Notes under the pieces: model-generated | The model's input: the letters and a program-made list of their open reading frames with translations, nothing else | Told to the model about the DNA's origin: nothing | Databases searched by the model: none | From: an uncultured Afifella sp. | GTDB lineage: Bacteria > Pseudomonadota > Alphaproteobacteria > Rhizobiales > Afifellaceae | Assembly: GCA_945787495.1 (NCBI GenBank) | Contig: CALZIL010000006.1 | Coordinates: 1-36,667 of the forward strand | DNA length: 36,667 nucleotides | Direction of reading: 5' to 3' | In this document: piece after piece, positions 1,633 through 20,985 of the stretch | How the letters are laid out: every line of letters begins with the position of its first letter | Position numbering within the stretch: the first letter of the stretch is position 1 | Position numbers and translations under genes: made by a program

Positions 1633-2328
1633 TCACCGCATTGAGCGCATTTTGATGATCGCCATCACATGCGCGATGATGAAGAGCGGTACGAAGAAGT
1701 TCGGAATCAGGCTGACCGGCAGCGTGTTAAGGACCGCGTCGGACGACACAGCGGCGAAATCGAGAAAATTGCCACCGATGCTGCCGATGCCGGTGACGAA
1801 CGCCACAGCGAAATCGGCCAGGCCGGCGACGATCACGCCATTGGCGGCGCGCTGCCAACCAGGCGCCTTCAGCGCCACCGCGATGGCGGCGAACGGTGCC
1901 ACCAGCCCGACGGCAATGTCGCCAAGCCCGGCCGGCAGGGCAAAGACCGCCGGCAATTGGCCATAGGCCCACAAAACGAGAAAGATCGATCCGATTACAC
2001 GCCAGCCCTGCAAAGCGGTCAGCAGCGCCAGATCCTGCGCCTCGACATAGGCGCGCACCGCCGGAATCGTTCGCACGGCGACCAGGAAGGCGGCCACGGG
2101 AATTGCGATCGCCGCAACAATGGCGACGGGAATTCCGCCGATCTCGATCTGGAAGATTTCGGTCTGCGCAAGCAGCGTGGCAAGGCTTGCCCACACCGCA
2201 AGCCCGATCACGATTGGTCCGGTGATGAGCCGGCCCAATCTGCCTTGCTCGCTGGCCCGGGATTCGCCGGCCGGCATTTTGGTCGTTGGATGTATCGTCA
2301 GGGACTGCGCTGTCATTCGGTTGGCCAT
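1633..2328 (-). CDS. multipass membrane protein, function unknown
   Basis: About 231 residues, mostly hydrophobic. After a polar N-terminal stretch of about 35 residues there are five to six probable membrane segments, the first around residues 35-55 and the last near the C terminus, ending in a basic tail (KMRSMR). I recognise no catalytic motif. I start it at the ATG at 2328 rather than the one at 2340: the sequence GGAG lies 6 bases upstream of 2328, while the earlier ATG is part of that same Shine-Dalgarno region. The gene lies directly downstream of a MarR repressor gene, but the 46-base gap holds its own promoter-like sequence with a MarR-type palindrome similar to the one before marR. 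The simplest reading is a small efflux or stress-response module controlled by that repressor. No homolog is claimed. Confidence 0.7.
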   Translation of the reverse strand: MANRMTAQSLTIHPTTKMPAGESRASEQGRLGRLITGPIVIGLAVWASLATLLAQTEIFQIEIGGIPVAIVAAIAIPVAAFLVAVRTIPAVRAYVEAQDLALLTALQGWRVIGSIFLVLWAYGQLPAVFALPAGLGDIAVGLVAPFAAIAVALKAPGWQRAANGVIVAGLADFAVAFVTGIGSIGGNFLDFAAVSSDAVLNTLPVSLIPNFFVPLFIIAHVMAIIKMRSMR

Positions 2329-2344
2329 GTCATTCTCCATTCAA

Positions 2345-2378
2345 GTGTATATGCATGTTTCTAGCTAAAAAAACTCAA
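2345..2378 (-). promoter_or_regulatory. promoter with MarR-type operator before the membrane protein gene
   Basis: Reading the minus strand, TTGAGT (2373-2378) could be a -35 and the TGCATATA block starting 17 bases later a -10. The sequence GTGTATATGCAT (2345-2356, plus strand) covers the -10 and matches 10 of 12 bases of the perfect palindrome in front of the marR gene. The -35 overlaps the marR stop codon. Confidence 0.5.
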
Positions 2379-2818
2379 CCGGCTGTGCTGCTGATCCGGT
2401 CGAGTTCGGTAAGCAGCGTATCGGCGGGCTTGTGTCCGAAAGTGCCAGCAACCTTCAATTGGACGGCGCGCCACAAGGGCTCGGCATCTCTCAGCCGCGT
2501 CCGGCCTGCCGCCGTCAGGGTGAGAAGCCGCACGCGCCGGTCGTCGCCTTCAGCCGATACCACCAGCCCGTCACGCTGCAGCGGTTTCAGATTGCGCGTC
2601 AGCGTCGTCCGGTCCATGCCGAGCGCACCGGCCAAGTCCGACAGTGGAACCGGCCCCTGCCTCTTCACCGCTGTCAAAAGCGTGAATTGCGGCGCGGTGA
2701 CGCCAACCGGCTTCAGCGCCGCGTCATAGGTCTGAGTCAGCGCCCGCGTCGCCTTGCGCAGATTGAAGCACAGGCAATTGGCCGGATCGGAAAGGTTGAT
2801 CTTTGGTGTGGTCATCAT
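2375..2818 (-). CDS. MarR family transcriptional regulator
   Basis: Winged-helix repressor of about 147 residues. The N-terminal dimerisation helix contains CLCFNLRKATRAL. It is followed by the recognition helix region (LAGALGMDRTTLTRNLKPL) and the beta-wing with the family hallmark DDRRVRLLTLT. Two cysteines sit at the N terminus (CLC), where some MarR proteins sense oxidants or electrophiles; sensing is an inference. The frame extends upstream through the operator to a GTG at 2833, but that part would translate the palindrome itself, so I prefer the ATG at 2818 (or the adjacent one at 2815). No Shine-Dalgarno precedes it. The -10 box lies so close that the mRNA may begin at the ATG (leaderless). 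The palindrome over its own -10 suggests autorepression, and a near copy controls the downstream membrane protein. Confidence 0.9.
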   Translation of the reverse strand: MMTTPKINLSDPANCLCFNLRKATRALTQTYDAALKPVGVTAPQFTLLTAVKRQGPVPLSDLAGALGMDRTTLTRNLKPLQRDGLVVSAEGDDRRVRLLTLTAAGRTRLRDAEPLWRAVQLKVAGTFGHKPADTLLTELDRISSTAG

Positions 2819-2821
2819 AAG

Positions 2822-2853
2822 GTGTATATACACTTTTTCTCAAAGATTGCAAG
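2822..2853 (-). promoter_or_regulatory. marR promoter with a perfect 12-bp palindromic operator
   Basis: On the minus strand, CTTGCA (2848-2853) and TATATA (2825-2830) are 17 bases apart, a good alphaproteobacterial sigma-70 spacing. The -10 is the centre of the perfect palindrome GTGTATATACAC (2822-2833). Seven bases past the -10 is the A of the ATG at 2818. Confidence 0.6.
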
Positions 2854-2886
2854 CGAAAAAAGAACGCCTCGCTGCCGCGGTCCCTA

Positions 2887-3510
2887 TCAACGAAGTTCGG
2901 CGGAGGTGGCGGCCGCGGTGACAGCGCGCAAAATCACGATCGCACCGGCAAGCAGATCAGATTCTTTCATGGCGGCCTTGCTTTGGTCCGAACGCTCCGA
3001 ATGCGGCACATGGACAAACCCGCACCAGGCGCCGGGCCGGGTCGCGGCGCATCCCAGCGACCGGTAATAGACCGCATTGCACACATAGGCGCCGGCATCG
3101 TCGGACTGTTCGACATCGAAGCCGCCATCGCGCAGCGCCTTGCCGACGGAGGTAGGCCAGACGCTGTCCAGCGCCCGCCGGCCGTCACGATCGATCTGCC
3201 GATCTTGCGGAATGACGCCGACAGCATCAGGCCGCTCGCAGCCGATCATATTGCCGGCTTGGCTTTCCAGCCGGAATCCTCTCGCGTCCCTATGCAGCCC
3301 GAAATGCACGGCAATATCCGGCGCCAAGGTGCGGTGCCGTTCATCGGCAATCGCCAGGGCGCGGGAAAATTCGGTCGGCAGAACCTCGCAGCAAAGCTCC
3401 GAAGCGCCGATCGCCTCGGGCGCAAGCTCGTCAAGCTGTTCAACAAGCCATTGCGTCGGATTGACCGGCGCCCCCGGAAACGGCCCGAAACCGGTCACCC
3501 AGAGGCGCAT
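2887..3510 (-). CDS. pcp: pyroglutamyl-peptidase I (peptidase family C15)
   Basis: Cysteine peptidase that removes N-terminal pyroglutamate from peptides in the cytosol. The N terminus has the family signature TGFGPFPGAPVNPT. The catalytic triad is visible: E82 (in RLESQA), C144 (in GAYVCNAVYY) and H167 (in GFVHVPH). The length of 207 residues is typical. The ATG at 3510 is the only reasonable start, as it opens directly into the first beta strand. The gene is 18 bases downstream of the slipin gene on the same strand, so it is likely cotranscribed with it. The C terminus is Ala/Thr-rich and unremarkable. Confidence 0.92.
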   Translation of the reverse strand: MRLWVTGFGPFPGAPVNPTQWLVEQLDELAPEAIGASELCCEVLPTEFSRALAIADERHRTLAPDIAVHFGLHRDARGFRLESQAGNMIGCERPDAVGVIPQDRQIDRDGRRALDSVWPTSVGKALRDGGFDVEQSDDAGAYVCNAVYYRSLGCAATRPGAWCGFVHVPHSERSDQSKAAMKESDLLAGAIVILRAVTAAATSAELR

Positions 3511-4609: not shown

Positions 4610-5641
4610 TCAGGCCGCGGCCTGCTTCTTCAAAAGCCCCCGATTGACCAGCAATTCGGCGATTTGCACCGTGTTCAGCGCCGCGCCCTTCCTGAGATTG
4701 TCGGAGACGACCCATAAAGACAGGCCGTTTTCCACGGTTCCGTCCTCGCGGATGCGCGAGATATAGGTGGCGTCCTCGCCGGCGCATTCGTACGGCGTCA
4801 CATAGCCGCCGTCCTCGTGCTTGTCGACGACCAGGCAGCCCGGCGCCTCGCGTAAAATATCGCGCGCCTCCTCGGCGCTGATCTCGTCTTCAAACTCAAG
4901 ATTGACCGCCTCGGCATGGCCGATAAACACCGGCACGCGCACGCAGGTCGCCGTCAGCTTGATTTTCGGATCGAGCATCTTCTTGGTTTCCGCCACCATC
5001 TTCCATTCTTCCTTGGTGGTTCCGTCCTCCATGAAGACGTCGATATGCGGAATGACGTTGAAGGCGATCCGCTTGGGGAATTTCTCCGCCTCGATCGGAT
5101 CGGCGACGAAGACCGACCGCGTCTGGTTGAAAAGCTCGTCCATCGCCGCCTTGCCGGCGCCGGATACCGACTGGTAGGTGGCAACGACGACCCGCTTGAT
5201 CCGCGCCTTGTCGTGCAGGGGTTTGAGCGCCACGACAAGTTGCGCCGTGGAGCAGTTCGGATTGGCGATGATGTTCTTTCTGGAGAATCCCTCGATCGCG
5301 TCGGCGTTCACTTCCGGCACGATCAGCGGCACGTCGGCGTCGTAGCGCCAGGCCGAGGAATTGTCGATGACGACGCAGCCGGTGGCGGCGATCTTCGGCG
5401 ACCATTCCTTCGACACCGCGCCCCCGGCCGACATCAGCGCGATATCGACGCCGGAAAAGTCGAAATCCTCCAGCGCCTGCACTTTCAGCGTTTTCTCGCC
5501 GAAAGAGACATCCGTGCCCTGGCTGCGGCGCGAGGCAAGGGCGATCACCTCATCGGCCGGAAACCCCCTTTCGGCGAGGATATCCAGCATTTCGTGGCCG
5601 ACATTGCCGGTCGCCCCGACGATTGCGATTGTGTAACCCAT
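4610..5641 (-). CDS. asd: aspartate-semialdehyde dehydrogenase
   Basis: NADPH-dependent reduction of aspartyl phosphate to aspartate semialdehyde, the branch point to lysine/diaminopimelate, threonine and methionine. The protein has 343 residues. The nucleotide-binding loop GATGNVG is at 9-15, the acyl-enzyme cysteine C130 is in NPNCST, and the catalytic base is H242 in IGHAEAVN. The start is set to the ATG at 5641 (MGYTIAIVGATG) because it opens into the first Rossmann strand; TTGAGGA lies about 9 bases upstream. The ATG-proximal extension to 5656 adds only five unrelated residues. It sits between leuB (upstream, same strand) and slipin, with gaps of over 250 bases on both sides, so it is probably its own transcript. 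Confidence 0.96.
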   Translation of the reverse strand: MGYTIAIVGATGNVGHEMLDILAERGFPADEVIALASRRSQGTDVSFGEKTLKVQALEDFDFSGVDIALMSAGGAVSKEWSPKIAATGCVVIDNSSAWRYDADVPLIVPEVNADAIEGFSRKNIIANPNCSTAQLVVALKPLHDKARIKRVVVATYQSVSGAGKAAMDELFNQTRSVFVADPIEAEKFPKRIAFNVIPHIDVFMEDGTTKEEWKMVAETKKMLDPKIKLTATCVRVPVFIGHAEAVNLEFEDEISAEEARDILREAPGCLVVDKHEDGGYVTPYECAGEDATYISRIREDGTVENGLSLWVVSDNLRKGAALNTVQIAELLVNRGLLKKQAAA

Positions 5642-5968
5642 GGATCCGGTCCTCAACTCCCTTCCGCGTCAACCCGCTTCAGATCATTGTCCTGCGGGCT
5701 TGTCTCCCCTTCCGGTCCCCGGGGAGAGAGGCGGGACGGAAGAGCGGATCAGGCGGTGGTCGGTTTGGTCGTAAGGTGCGTCGTGGACACCGCGCGCACC
5801 GAACCGGCCGCCAACATTGCGGCCTCCGGCATAACAAGGTTCGAAACGAAAACAGCCATCGTTCCCAAGCTCCACGAACGTCGCCGCGTTCTATCGGGTT
5901 TGCCGGTGAAGTCAATGATGGCGGCGGCGCCCCGCGCGCCGCTCGCTCGCCAAGGTGCCTTGGCCGTC
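5642..5968. other. intergenic region asd-leuB, no gene supported
   Basis: This 327-base gap has no open frame with coding character. It holds two short palindromes: a CTCCCC...GGGGAG-type inverted repeat near 5705-5730, as seen in dispersed repeats, and CCAAGG-TG-CCTTGG at 5950-5963, just downstream of the leuB stop, which may help end that transcript. The asd promoter must lie in the part near 5642-5700, but I could not pick convincing boxes. Confidence 0.4.
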
Positions 5969-18675: not shown

Positions 18676-18704
18676 TTCTGCCCCCTTGCGGGGAGGAATA
18701 TCCG

Positions 18705-19262
18705 CTACTCCGCCGGTTTGTCGTTCTCGCCGGCCTCTTCGGCAGGAGCTTCTTCAGTAGCAGTATCTTCGGCCACAGTTTCTTCCGCCGGCGCATCCTC
18801 GGCGACAACCTCTTCAGCCGGCGCCTCTTCAGCAGCAGCTTCCTCGGCAACGGCTTCCTCGGCCGGGGCTTCGTCGGCCGGGGCCTCTTCAACGACTGCT
18901 TCTTCAGCCGGGGCCGCCTTGGCCTCTTCCTCGGCTTTCTTCTTGCCTTCGATCCGCTCCAGTGTCTTGGCGCTGGGCTTGGCCTTGTTCGGATTGTTGC
19001 GCGCCGGGCGCGTCAGGATACCGGCGGCATCGAGAAAACGGTGCACCCGGTCGGTCGGCTTGGCGCCGTGCGAGAGCCAATGCTCGATGCGTTCGGCGTT
19101 CATGACGACCCGCTCGCCGCTGTCTTTCGGCAACAGCGGATTGTAGGTGCCCAGCCGTTCAATATAGCGCCCGTCGCGCGGCGCCCGTTCGTCCGCCGCC
19201 ACGATCCGGTAGAACGGCCGCTTCTTGGAGCCGCCGCGCGCCAGTCTGATTTTCACTGCCAT
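18705..19262 (-). CDS. rpsP: 30S ribosomal protein S16 with long acidic C-terminal tail
   Basis: Residues 1 to about 85 are S16 ([48 protein letters not shown]). After an [15 protein letters not shown] linker, residues from about 108 to 185 are an Ala/Glu/Asp low-complexity tail of repeated EEAPAEEA-like units ending DKPAE. E. coli S16 has only 82 residues; tails are known in alphaproteobacteria, but this one nearly doubles the protein's length. The DNA of the tail is a run of similar short repeats, so its length probably varies by slippage. The ATG at 19262 lies 34 bases downstream of ffh. Confidence 0.96.
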
Positions 19263-19296: not shown

Positions 19297-20799
19297 TTAT
19301 TTCTTGAATTTCGGTTTGCCGATGCCTGCGCCAGGCAGGCCGCCACCCGGCAGGCCGGGCAGGCCTTTTGGCAATCCGCCCATGCCGCCTGGAAGGCCAC
19401 CGGGAAGACTGCCTATTCCGCCCTTCTGGATATCTTCCAGCATTTGCGGATCGGGTTCGGCCGGCATATTTCCGCCGAACAGGCCAGCAAGCCCGCCCTT
19501 CTTGCGGCCGAGCTTCTTCATCATGTCCGACATCTGCCGGTGCATTTTCAAAAGCCTGTTGACATCCTGGACCTTGTTGCCGGACCCGGCCGCTACGCGC
19601 TTCTTGCGCGAAGCGTTCATCAGCGCCGGCTTTTGCTTTTCCCGTTTGGTCATCGAAGAAATGATCGCCAATTGCCGCTTGACGATGGAATCGTCGAGCC
19701 CGGCGGCGGCCATCTGGGTTTTCATTTTGCCCATGCCGGGCATCATCCCCATAATGCCGCCCATGCCGCCCATTTTCTGCATCTGTTTGAGCTGATCGGC
19801 GAGATCGGAAAGGTCAAATTCACCCTTTTGCAGCTTGCGCGCGGCGGCCTTGGCCTTTTCCTGATCGATCGTCTCGGCGGCCTTTTCGACCAGCGAGACG
19901 ATATCGCCCATGCCCAGAATGCGGTCGGCGATGCGGCCGGGGTGGAAATCCTCCAGCGCGTCCATCTTTTCGCCGGTGCCGATCAGCTTGATCGGCTTGC
20001 CGGTGACGGCCCGCATCGACAGCGCCGCGCCGCCTCGCCCGTCGCCGTCGACCCGCGTCAGCACGATGCCGGTGATGCCGACTTTCTCGTCAAACGAGCG
20101 CGCCACATTGACCGCGTCCTGACCGGTCAGCGCATCGGCGACGAGCAGGATTTCGTGCGGATCCGCCGCCGCCTTGATCGCCTGCATTTCCGCCATCAGC
20201 GGTTCGTCGATGTGGGTACGCCCGGCGGTATCGAGCATGACCACGTCATAGCCGCCCAGTTCCGCCGCATTGGCCGCGCGCCTGGCAATCTCCACCGGCG
20301 TCTGGCCGGCAACCACCGGCAGCGTTGCCACGCCAACCTGCTCGCCGAGCACCTTCAGCTGCTCTTGCGCCGCCGGCCGGCGCGTATCGAGCGAGGCCAT
20401 CAGCACCTTTTTCCTGTCCCGCTCCTGCAGCCGTCTGGCGACTTTCGCAGTCGTCGTCGTCTTGCCCGAACCCTGCAGGCCGACCATCATCATCGCCACA
20501 GGCGGCGGCGCAGCAAGATCGACCGGCACCGCCTCGGCGCCGAGCATCTCGACAAGCTGGTCGTGGACGATCTTGACGACCATCTGGCCCGGCTTGACCG
20601 CCTTGACCACCTCTGCGCCGACGGCCCGCTCGCGCACCTTGTCGGTGAAGCTTTTGACCACGTCGAGCGCGACATCGGCCTCCAGCAGCGCCCGGCGCAC
20701 CTCGCGCAAAGCCTCGCCGACATCTTTTTCCGACAGCGCACCGCGGCCGGTGATGGTGTCGAAGATGCCGGACAGGCGATCGGACAGAGTCTCGAACAT
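19297..20799 (-). CDS. ffh: signal recognition particle protein Ffh (SRP54)
   Basis: SRP GTPase that binds signal sequences of nascent membrane proteins and docks with FtsY. 500 residues: N domain (MFETLSDRLSGIFDTITG), G domain with P-loop GLQGSGKTTTTAK near residue 105, DTRRPAA, DTAGR and TRVDGDGRGG, and a methionine-rich M domain (MQKMGGMGGIMGMMPGM). The C-terminal tail is Gly/Pro/Leu-rich (GGLPGGMGGLPKG). ATG at 20799. It heads the ffh-rpsP-rimM-trmD-rplS unit. Its partner ftsY is in the window at 25.4 kb. The 4.5S RNA gene was not seen. Confidence 0.97.
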   Translation of the reverse strand: MFETLSDRLSGIFDTITGRGALSEKDVGEALREVRRALLEADVALDVVKSFTDKVRERAVGAEVVKAVKPGQMVVKIVHDQLVEMLGAEAVPVDLAAPPPVAMMMVGLQGSGKTTTTAKVARRLQERDRKKVLMASLDTRRPAAQEQLKVLGEQVGVATLPVVAGQTPVEIARRAANAAELGGYDVVMLDTAGRTHIDEPLMAEMQAIKAAADPHEILLVADALTGQDAVNVARSFDEKVGITGIVLTRVDGDGRGGAALSMRAVTGKPIKLIGTGEKMDALEDFHPGRIADRILGMGDIVSLVEKAAETIDQEKAKAAARKLQKGEFDLSDLADQLKQMQKMGGMGGIMGMMPGMGKMKTQMAAAGLDDSIVKRQLAIISSMTKREKQKPALMNASRKKRVAAGSGNKVQDVNRLLKMHRQMSDMMKKLGRKKGGLAGLFGGNMPAEPDPQMLEDIQKGGIGSLPGGLPGGMGGLPKGLPGLPGGGLPGAGIGKPKFKK

Positions 20800-20985
20800 G
20801 GCGCTCCAAAGTGTTTACGCACCTGCGGGCGCATCGCGCTGACAGGTGGTGACCTCCGGGCTCTCTTTAGACCTTTGCGGGGCCCGGTCGGCGGATGACA
20901 AATGGCTCTATCAAAGAGTGCGCGTCACCTAGGCGGCGGGCGGGGCGAAGTCAAGGCTAATCCCCGGCGTGTGGAGCAGCGTGAT

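Follow-up and report, generated by a model that had tools for sequence, protein, structure and literature searches.

We conclude that marR and the adjacent membrane-protein gene mem form a local two-site circuit, which is controlled by a MarR repressor of MosR-like and probably thiol-sensing type and in which the marR mRNA would start at or near its AUG; we put the probability of this reading at roughly 0.7. The two genes lie in a stretch of 36,667 nucleotides, analysed as a whole and called the window here, and their features are listed in Table 1. In the proposed mechanism, a reduced repressor dimer would occupy the putative operators O1, over the marR -10, and O2, before mem, and would repress both genes, until oxidation of Cys15 or its attack by an electrophile (with Cys17 as the likely partner in the window protein) releases the dimer and induces both. 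The marR transcript would have its 5' end on the AUG or a few bases from it, -10, operator and start codon would be packed in about 20 bp, and the repressor would be made by leaderless initiation, while mem would be translated from a normal Shine-Dalgarno sequence. DNA binding, autorepression, the signal, the transcription start and a role of mem in redox or electrophile stress are what we infer from sequence comparison. An earlier note on this DNA had proposed autorepression and control of mem through matched operators, and at the sequence level this proposal is strongly supported by the conservation of the sites, their low background and their covariation with the recognition helix.

Table 1. 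Features of the marR-mem locus (positions in the window)
Feature	Position	Strand	Description
marR	2375-2818	-	147-aa MarR-family repressor
marR ATG	2816-2818	-	3 nt past O1; no Shine-Dalgarno; proposed leaderless start
Cys15 codon	2774-2776		in marR
Cys17 codon	2768-2770		in marR
MarR recognition helix	residues 66-82		LGMDRTTLTRNLKPLQR
Arg70 codon	2609-2611		marR specificity residue
Arg75 codon	2594-2596		marR specificity residue
O1 (putative operator)	2822-2833; extended A-N-12-N-T form 2820-2835	no strand	GTGTATATACAC
Proposed marR -10	TATACA 2823-2828 or TATATA 2825-2830	-	inside O1
-35-like TTGCAA	2847-2852	-	marR promoter; 13 nt ahead of O1
O2 (putative operator)	2345-2356; extended 2343-2358	no strand	between marR and mem; GTGTATATGCAT, on the minus strand ATGCATATACAC; 10/12 match to GTGTATATACAC
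7-T run	2367-2373	-	between marR stop and O2
Shine-Dalgarno GGAG of mem	2335-2338	-	from sequence
mem	1633-2328	-	231-aa predicted membrane protein; proposed repressor target

The gene mem begins 46 nt beyond marR on the same strand, and the other flank of marR is taken by a pyroglutamyl-peptidase-like gene. A terminator scan of positions 2200-3000 found none; runs of at least six T between the marR stop and the second site occur in 8 of 23 gene pairs of this kind (see below). Elsewhere in the window, an ffh sRNA (Rfam RF01793, 52.1 bits; 20812-20863, minus strand) lies just upstream of the SRP54 (ffh) gene (19297-20799; Pfam SRP54), and 15-base imperfect repeats (18703-18942, minus strand) lie in the 3' portion of the S16 ribosomal protein gene (18705-19262), in whose 185-residue product Pfam Ribosomal_S16 spans residues 9-70 and is followed by a long repetitive tail.

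Both palindromes described in the earlier note were confirmed: an exact copy of GTGTATATACAC is present near the marR ATG, and the copy ahead of mem agrees at 10 of 12 positions. They are the only sites with at most two mismatches in the window, where shuffled sequences contained 0.10 such sites on average and two in only 1 of 100 cases. Exact GTGTATATACAC occurs a single time in the assembly of 3,870,614 bases (3.87 Mb), and sites with at most two mismatches are found at 12 places (37 for a reversed control pattern). A lone site of this quality is not rare, given these 12 places; the unusual feature is the presence of two such sites 477 bp apart ahead of adjacent genes. Eight of the ten other genomic sites were inspected (two had no locus), and all eight fall within stop-to-stop frames of at least 100 codons. 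None is a convincing operator, and a larger regulon is not supported. A literature search for GTGTATATACAC found no report, and one for TGTATATACA together with MarR gave irrelevant matches only, in a coverage that leaves out most subscription journals.

Relatives of the locus were collected by searching with the mem protein, or with a profile of 12 relatives, in overlapping samples of 61 genomes from relatives, 397 from the order, 385 from the class and 398 from the phylum. These contained matches in 5, 27, 17 and 7 genomes, respectively, with the genome of the window counted each time, and all matches in the phylum sample fall within its class. Five loci came from one search of named genome contigs in which the MarR protein was the query. 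Among the 58 matches to the mem-family profile, seven are second copies judged by coordinates or identical scores (L062, L067-L071 and L073). A MarR gene lies directly upstream of mem on the same strand at 23 distinct loci including the window. At a 24th (L049, extended as L076) an EamA transporter gene stands between the two, and at L053/L077 the MarR gene is downstream of mem and there is no full site. Around the remaining mem matches, the retrieved sequence (about 1.5 kb per side) contains no MarR relative. Most relatives of mem are found without an adjoining MarR gene, which counts against the proposed circuit.

The check proposed in the earlier note, a search for the same palindrome before homologous marR genes, was carried out on this set, and a RTGYANNTRCAY site intact at all ten defined positions precedes marR in 20 of the 23 adjacent pairs and lies between marR and mem in 19 (a further pair, L014, has 9/10 there). 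Outside the marR-upstream and intergenic regions of the same loci the pattern was found once in 81,017 positions (0.001 expected per 90 bp). L050 carries TTG..CAA versions at both places and L057, read by eye, has GTTGATATAAAC and GTTGATATCAAC at the two places; L033 has neither an upstream nor an intergenic site. In the split pair L076 (436-1912) there are three full sites, one each before marR, the EamA transporter gene and mem. Including flanking bases, usually an A two positions before and a T two positions after, the sites span about 16 bp. Over the 23 pairs the distance between the two sites ranges from 445 to 541 bp, with L033 and L057 represented by their best non-matching stretches, and by eye no constant helical phase is apparent. 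A separate observation concerns L041, a relative of mem with no MarR neighbour: GTGTAGATACAC is found about 75 bp upstream of it (L075, 2254-2265), and no regulator was recognised for it among the open reading frames listed in this 5 kb stretch.

The best evidence that the MarR protein may read both sites is that the sites vary together with its recognition helix. Arg, Gly or Lys at residue 70 pairs with the outer triplet GTG, ATG or TTG, and Arg or Ala at residue 75 with GTGTA or GTTGA. Gly70 is found in exactly the three members that have ATG..CAT at both sites (L013, L028, L030), Lys70 in L050 with its TTG..CAA at both, Ala75 in the five members read with GTTGATATCAAC-type sites (L019, L057, L081, L082, L083), and Arg75 in the 23 members whose marR is preceded by a full RTGYA site (20 pairs, L076, L018 and L085). 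Four relatives to which no clear site was assigned (L079, L080, L084, L087) are left out of this count. The outer base is not strictly fixed by Arg70, as four members with this residue (L047, L048, L018, L040) and O2 of the window itself have A or T at one or more outer positions. In addition, no GTTGATATCAAC was seen in the 170 bp read for L080, an Arthrobacter relative with Ala75, which counts against a code based on residues 70 and 75, and the number of independent covariation events is small because the three Gly70 members form one clade. With these exceptions in view, the comparison makes it very likely that the repressor reads both O1 and O2. The MosR-like repressors L019, L081, L082 and L083, all with Ala75 and GTTGATATCAAC upstream, represent a second operator class in the same family; where annotated, the neighbours of L081 and L082 are VOC, DUF899 and similar genes.

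How O2 acts on mem is less clear-cut. The earlier note had placed the downstream copy over a -10 of mem, and while the copy itself is where it was said to be, an own mem -10 beneath it is doubtful: TATA forms the centre of 20 of 22 marR sites and of only 13 of 23 second sites (it is missing in 2 and 10, respectively; GC, CC, AT, AC, GA and TC occur in the middle of second sites), and none of the 23 second sites agrees with TTGACA at 4/6 or more at the distance seen before marR. Both features would fit a different role for O2: mem would lack its own promoter and depend on read-through of transcription initiated at the marR promoter, and O2 would act as a roadblock to elongating polymerase or assist repression at O1. 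The arrangement of the genes is compatible with this too, as the matched part of mem follows marR in the same direction at 23-156 nt in 22 of the 23 pairs (310 nt in L059). Against such read-through, TTT followed by G or A is common at 10-13 nt before the second sites, 13 of 23 have a best-scoring -35/-10 pair whose -10 falls at operator position 12-14, which suggests a weak, shifted promoter, and L076 has one operator per gene. The promoter scores at the second sites are 6-9/12 (7/12 in the window), a range in which 6 is the commonest value at random positions and 41% of these reach 7. We regard a roadblock function as possible, with the odds against it. The mem start tested has a Shine-Dalgarno match of at least 4 bases in 19 of 23 pairs, where the scan used another ATG in the window than that of mem at 1633-2328.

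The marR product belongs to the MarR family by two Pfam models (PF01047, 38.4 bits, cut-off 24.6; PF12802, 38.1 bits, cut-off 27). Its closest solved relatives are 4fx0/4fx4 (4fx0: E=3.8e-26, phmmer), listed as 'probable transcriptional repressor protein', which we take to be MosR (Rv1049) of Mycobacterium tuberculosis. Cys15-x-Cys17 of the window protein aligns with the C-x-C of 4fx0 at the start of helix 1, and this MosR-like cysteine pair, missing from the earlier note, suggests what the signal may be. Thiol sensing is proposed because the Cys-x-Cys is common to the closest solved relative and Cys15 is found in 24 of 24 paired members. Cys17 is retained in 16 of them and replaced in 8, which excludes a Cys-Cys disulphide mechanism shared by all; a third of the family must use another partner for Cys15. 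The MosR repressor is described as leaving DNA once a Cys10-Cys12 disulphide forms on oxidation (PMC5823404). An OhrR-type sensor is not indicated, as the one OhrR model listed (NF052638) scores 45.9 bits, below its cut-off of 200, and the OhrR tyrosine pair is incomplete, with Tyr31 present and Ala42 where 5hli has Tyr. The oxidoreductase gene that adjoins MosR is absent as well; the next gene here encodes the membrane protein, for which no Pfam or NCBIfam family was found and whose single-sequence structure model is poor (mean pLDDT 49).

The same two operators could also serve a repressor that answers to a small-molecule ligand, in which case the cysteines would be structural and the mem protein would export a compound or confer tolerance to it. 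Most MarR proteins are indeed said to be ligand-responsive (PMC5823404), related repressors adjoin transporters (MFS in L018 and L085, EamA in L076), and Cys17 is lost in a third of the paired members. However, Cys15 is invariant although 15 aligned relatives share only 34-57% identity with the window protein, and thiol sensing has been described for the closest solved relative (PMC5823404). A further argument against a ligand comes from the neighbours of mem itself, since a divergent HxlR-family regulator with an N-terminal cysteine is found beside five unpaired mem relatives (L016, L029, L032, L034, L044). These five candidates were chosen by eye among the 19 loci that lack a MarR gene (the upstream open reading frame was available for 18, and the L016 regulator was identified separately), and only they were tested against Pfam, five of five being positive. 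The HxlR (DUF24) members HypR, YodB and CatR are reported to sense thiol stress through an N-terminal cysteine (PMC6943732, PMC7835342). They differ from the window's regulator in family and in their divergent gene order, and no such gene lies beside the window's mem. We infer that the mem protein may help against thiol-reactive or oxidative stress. A ligand as the signal seems unlikely to us on this evidence, and we consider a thiol switch with Cys15 at its centre the likeliest signal. At another locus, L015, where the fetched stretch contains no MarR relative, the mem relative adjoins a semialdehyde-dehydrogenase (asd-like) gene; an asd-like gene is also located near the window's pair (4610-5656).

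With respect to the start of marR, the earlier note had observed that the palindrome covers the -10 and that a Shine-Dalgarno sequence is missing. Both observations hold: O1 overlaps the proposed TATACA or TATATA, in keeping with the central TATA of the marR sites, and no match of at least 4 bases was found for the marR ATG, for the ATG at the next codon (the only in-frame ATG alternative before Cys15) or for an in-frame GTG inside the palindrome. TTGCAA lies 16 nt ahead of TATATA and 18 nt ahead of TATACA, with -35 and -10 each matching at 4/6 in the window, and at the position starting 19 bases before the operator at least 4/6 agreement with TTGACA is found in 14 of 22 marR sites. The proposed -10 lies within the operator, and therefore transcription would begin at the AUG or a few nucleotides from it; from the promoter spacing, the start is predicted on the A of the ATG. 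A generic promoter scan favours TTGAGA-18-TATGAT (10/12), which overlaps the marR ATG. We rejected it as the main promoter because its start would fall inside the gene and because, across the family, a TTGACA-like element precedes the operator by 13 nt.

The close spacing recurs among the relatives. Of the 21 pairs with a site, the split pair L076 included, 16 have the marR ATG 3-7 nt past the operator: 3 nt in the window and L056; 4 in L013 and L028; 5 in L012, L026, L030, L047, L048 and L076; 6 in L024, L025, L051 and L059; and 7 in L038 and L040. Some of these assignments are less certain than others, as the start of L012 is ambiguous because its sister L023 uses a later ATG, and L013 has an additional in-frame ATG at the operator edge. 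Outside the pairs, the ATG of Ensifer canadensis L085 is 5 nt past GTGTATATACAC and the annotated start of Deinococcus aetherius L078 is 5 nt past a 9/10 site, with a second 9/10 site ahead of the adjacent SDR oxidoreductase gene. The claim of a leaderless start made in the earlier note gains from this recurrence, although it does not extend to the remaining 5 of 21 pairs, in which the ATG is 17-50 nt away (L027, 17; L017, 18, with Shine-Dalgarno; L023, 28; L022, 30; L014, 50, with Shine-Dalgarno). These five, among them the nearest relatives L022 and L023, which start downstream, could be taken to mean that the marR mRNA generally carries an ordinary leader, derived from a transcript that starts upstream or is processed, and that the palindrome acts on DNA only or as an RNA hairpin. 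Yet a Shine-Dalgarno at the usual spacing is absent in the 15 short-spaced members scanned and, by eye, in L076 (L026, L048 and L056 have GGTG or AGGTG at the operator edge, 12-14 nt from the ATG), the -35 keeps a fixed distance from the site, and in L027 TTGACA and ATG are both displaced downstream. An ordinary leader for marR is in our view quite improbable, and the window's marR mRNA is probably leaderless or nearly so, in a layout that is supported as recurrent but not universal. In a tree of 27 MarR proteins with only 5 well supported branches, the leaderless and leader arrangements do not form separate clades and require 4 changes, at least 2 of them forced. Leaderless mRNAs have been described in the alphaproteobacteria, the class of the window, with 171 leaderless start sites given for Sinorhizobium meliloti (PMC3616915). 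That the palindromes are nothing but chance A+T-rich promoter sequence, for which one might point to the 12 genome-wide places with at most two mismatches, is hardly credible given the conservation of both places and their covariation with the protein.

Several known systems resemble the proposed circuit in part. MosR (Rv1049) is described as an oxidation-sensing repressor (PMC5823404) and combines this with the closest solved sequence and the aligned N-terminal Cys-x-Cys. In contrast to the window's family, in which 8 of 24 relatives lack the second cysteine and the target is a membrane protein of no known family, its target is a secreted oxidoreductase. EstR of Agrobacterium tumefaciens, an OhrR-type MarR protein and alphaproteobacterial thiol sensor, is likewise described as having two operators, one of them over the -10, and as repressing itself and its neighbour; but both of its sites lie in the one estR-estC intergenic region, its palindrome is GTTATCGCGATAAC, its target is another, and its sensing residues Tyr30 and Tyr41 are not both present in the window protein (PMC5201249). 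For CrtR of Corynebacterium glutamicum, a MarR-type autorepressor, a leaderless transcript has been reported, but its signal is isoprenoid pyrophosphates, its target is the carotenoid operon, and its binding requires a TTAA motif located 25-28 bases ahead of the crtE start site (PMC5401885). A leaderless repressor mRNA is therefore already known, and what is added here is its recurrence together with the operator. We place the window's circuit among the redox repressors of the MosR/OhrR kind, as a variant whose target is an uncharacterised membrane protein.

A more far-reaching proposal, which we offer tentatively and with the balance somewhat against it, is that the locus belongs to a widespread and undescribed stress module. 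It would consist of a MosR-like thiol repressor with operator, -10 and start codon fused in about 20 bp, a leaderless mRNA, one operator per controlled gene, and a new membrane family adopted separately by MarR and HxlR cysteine sensors, with residues 70 and 75 as a specificity code. If this is true, leaderless translation would let synthesis of the repressor persist or change under stress differently from that of its target. The recurrent, probably leaderless repressor mRNA is itself a useful case for asking why regulators are made in this way. Since sites and helix have changed together in the relatives, rules of DNA recognition by MarR proteins could be probed through exchanges at residue 70 or 75, and one protein, two short sites and a series of covarying relatives make an experimentally easy set. 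For the uncharacterised membrane-protein family, its ties to regulators of the thiol-sensing kind may provide a first functional handle.
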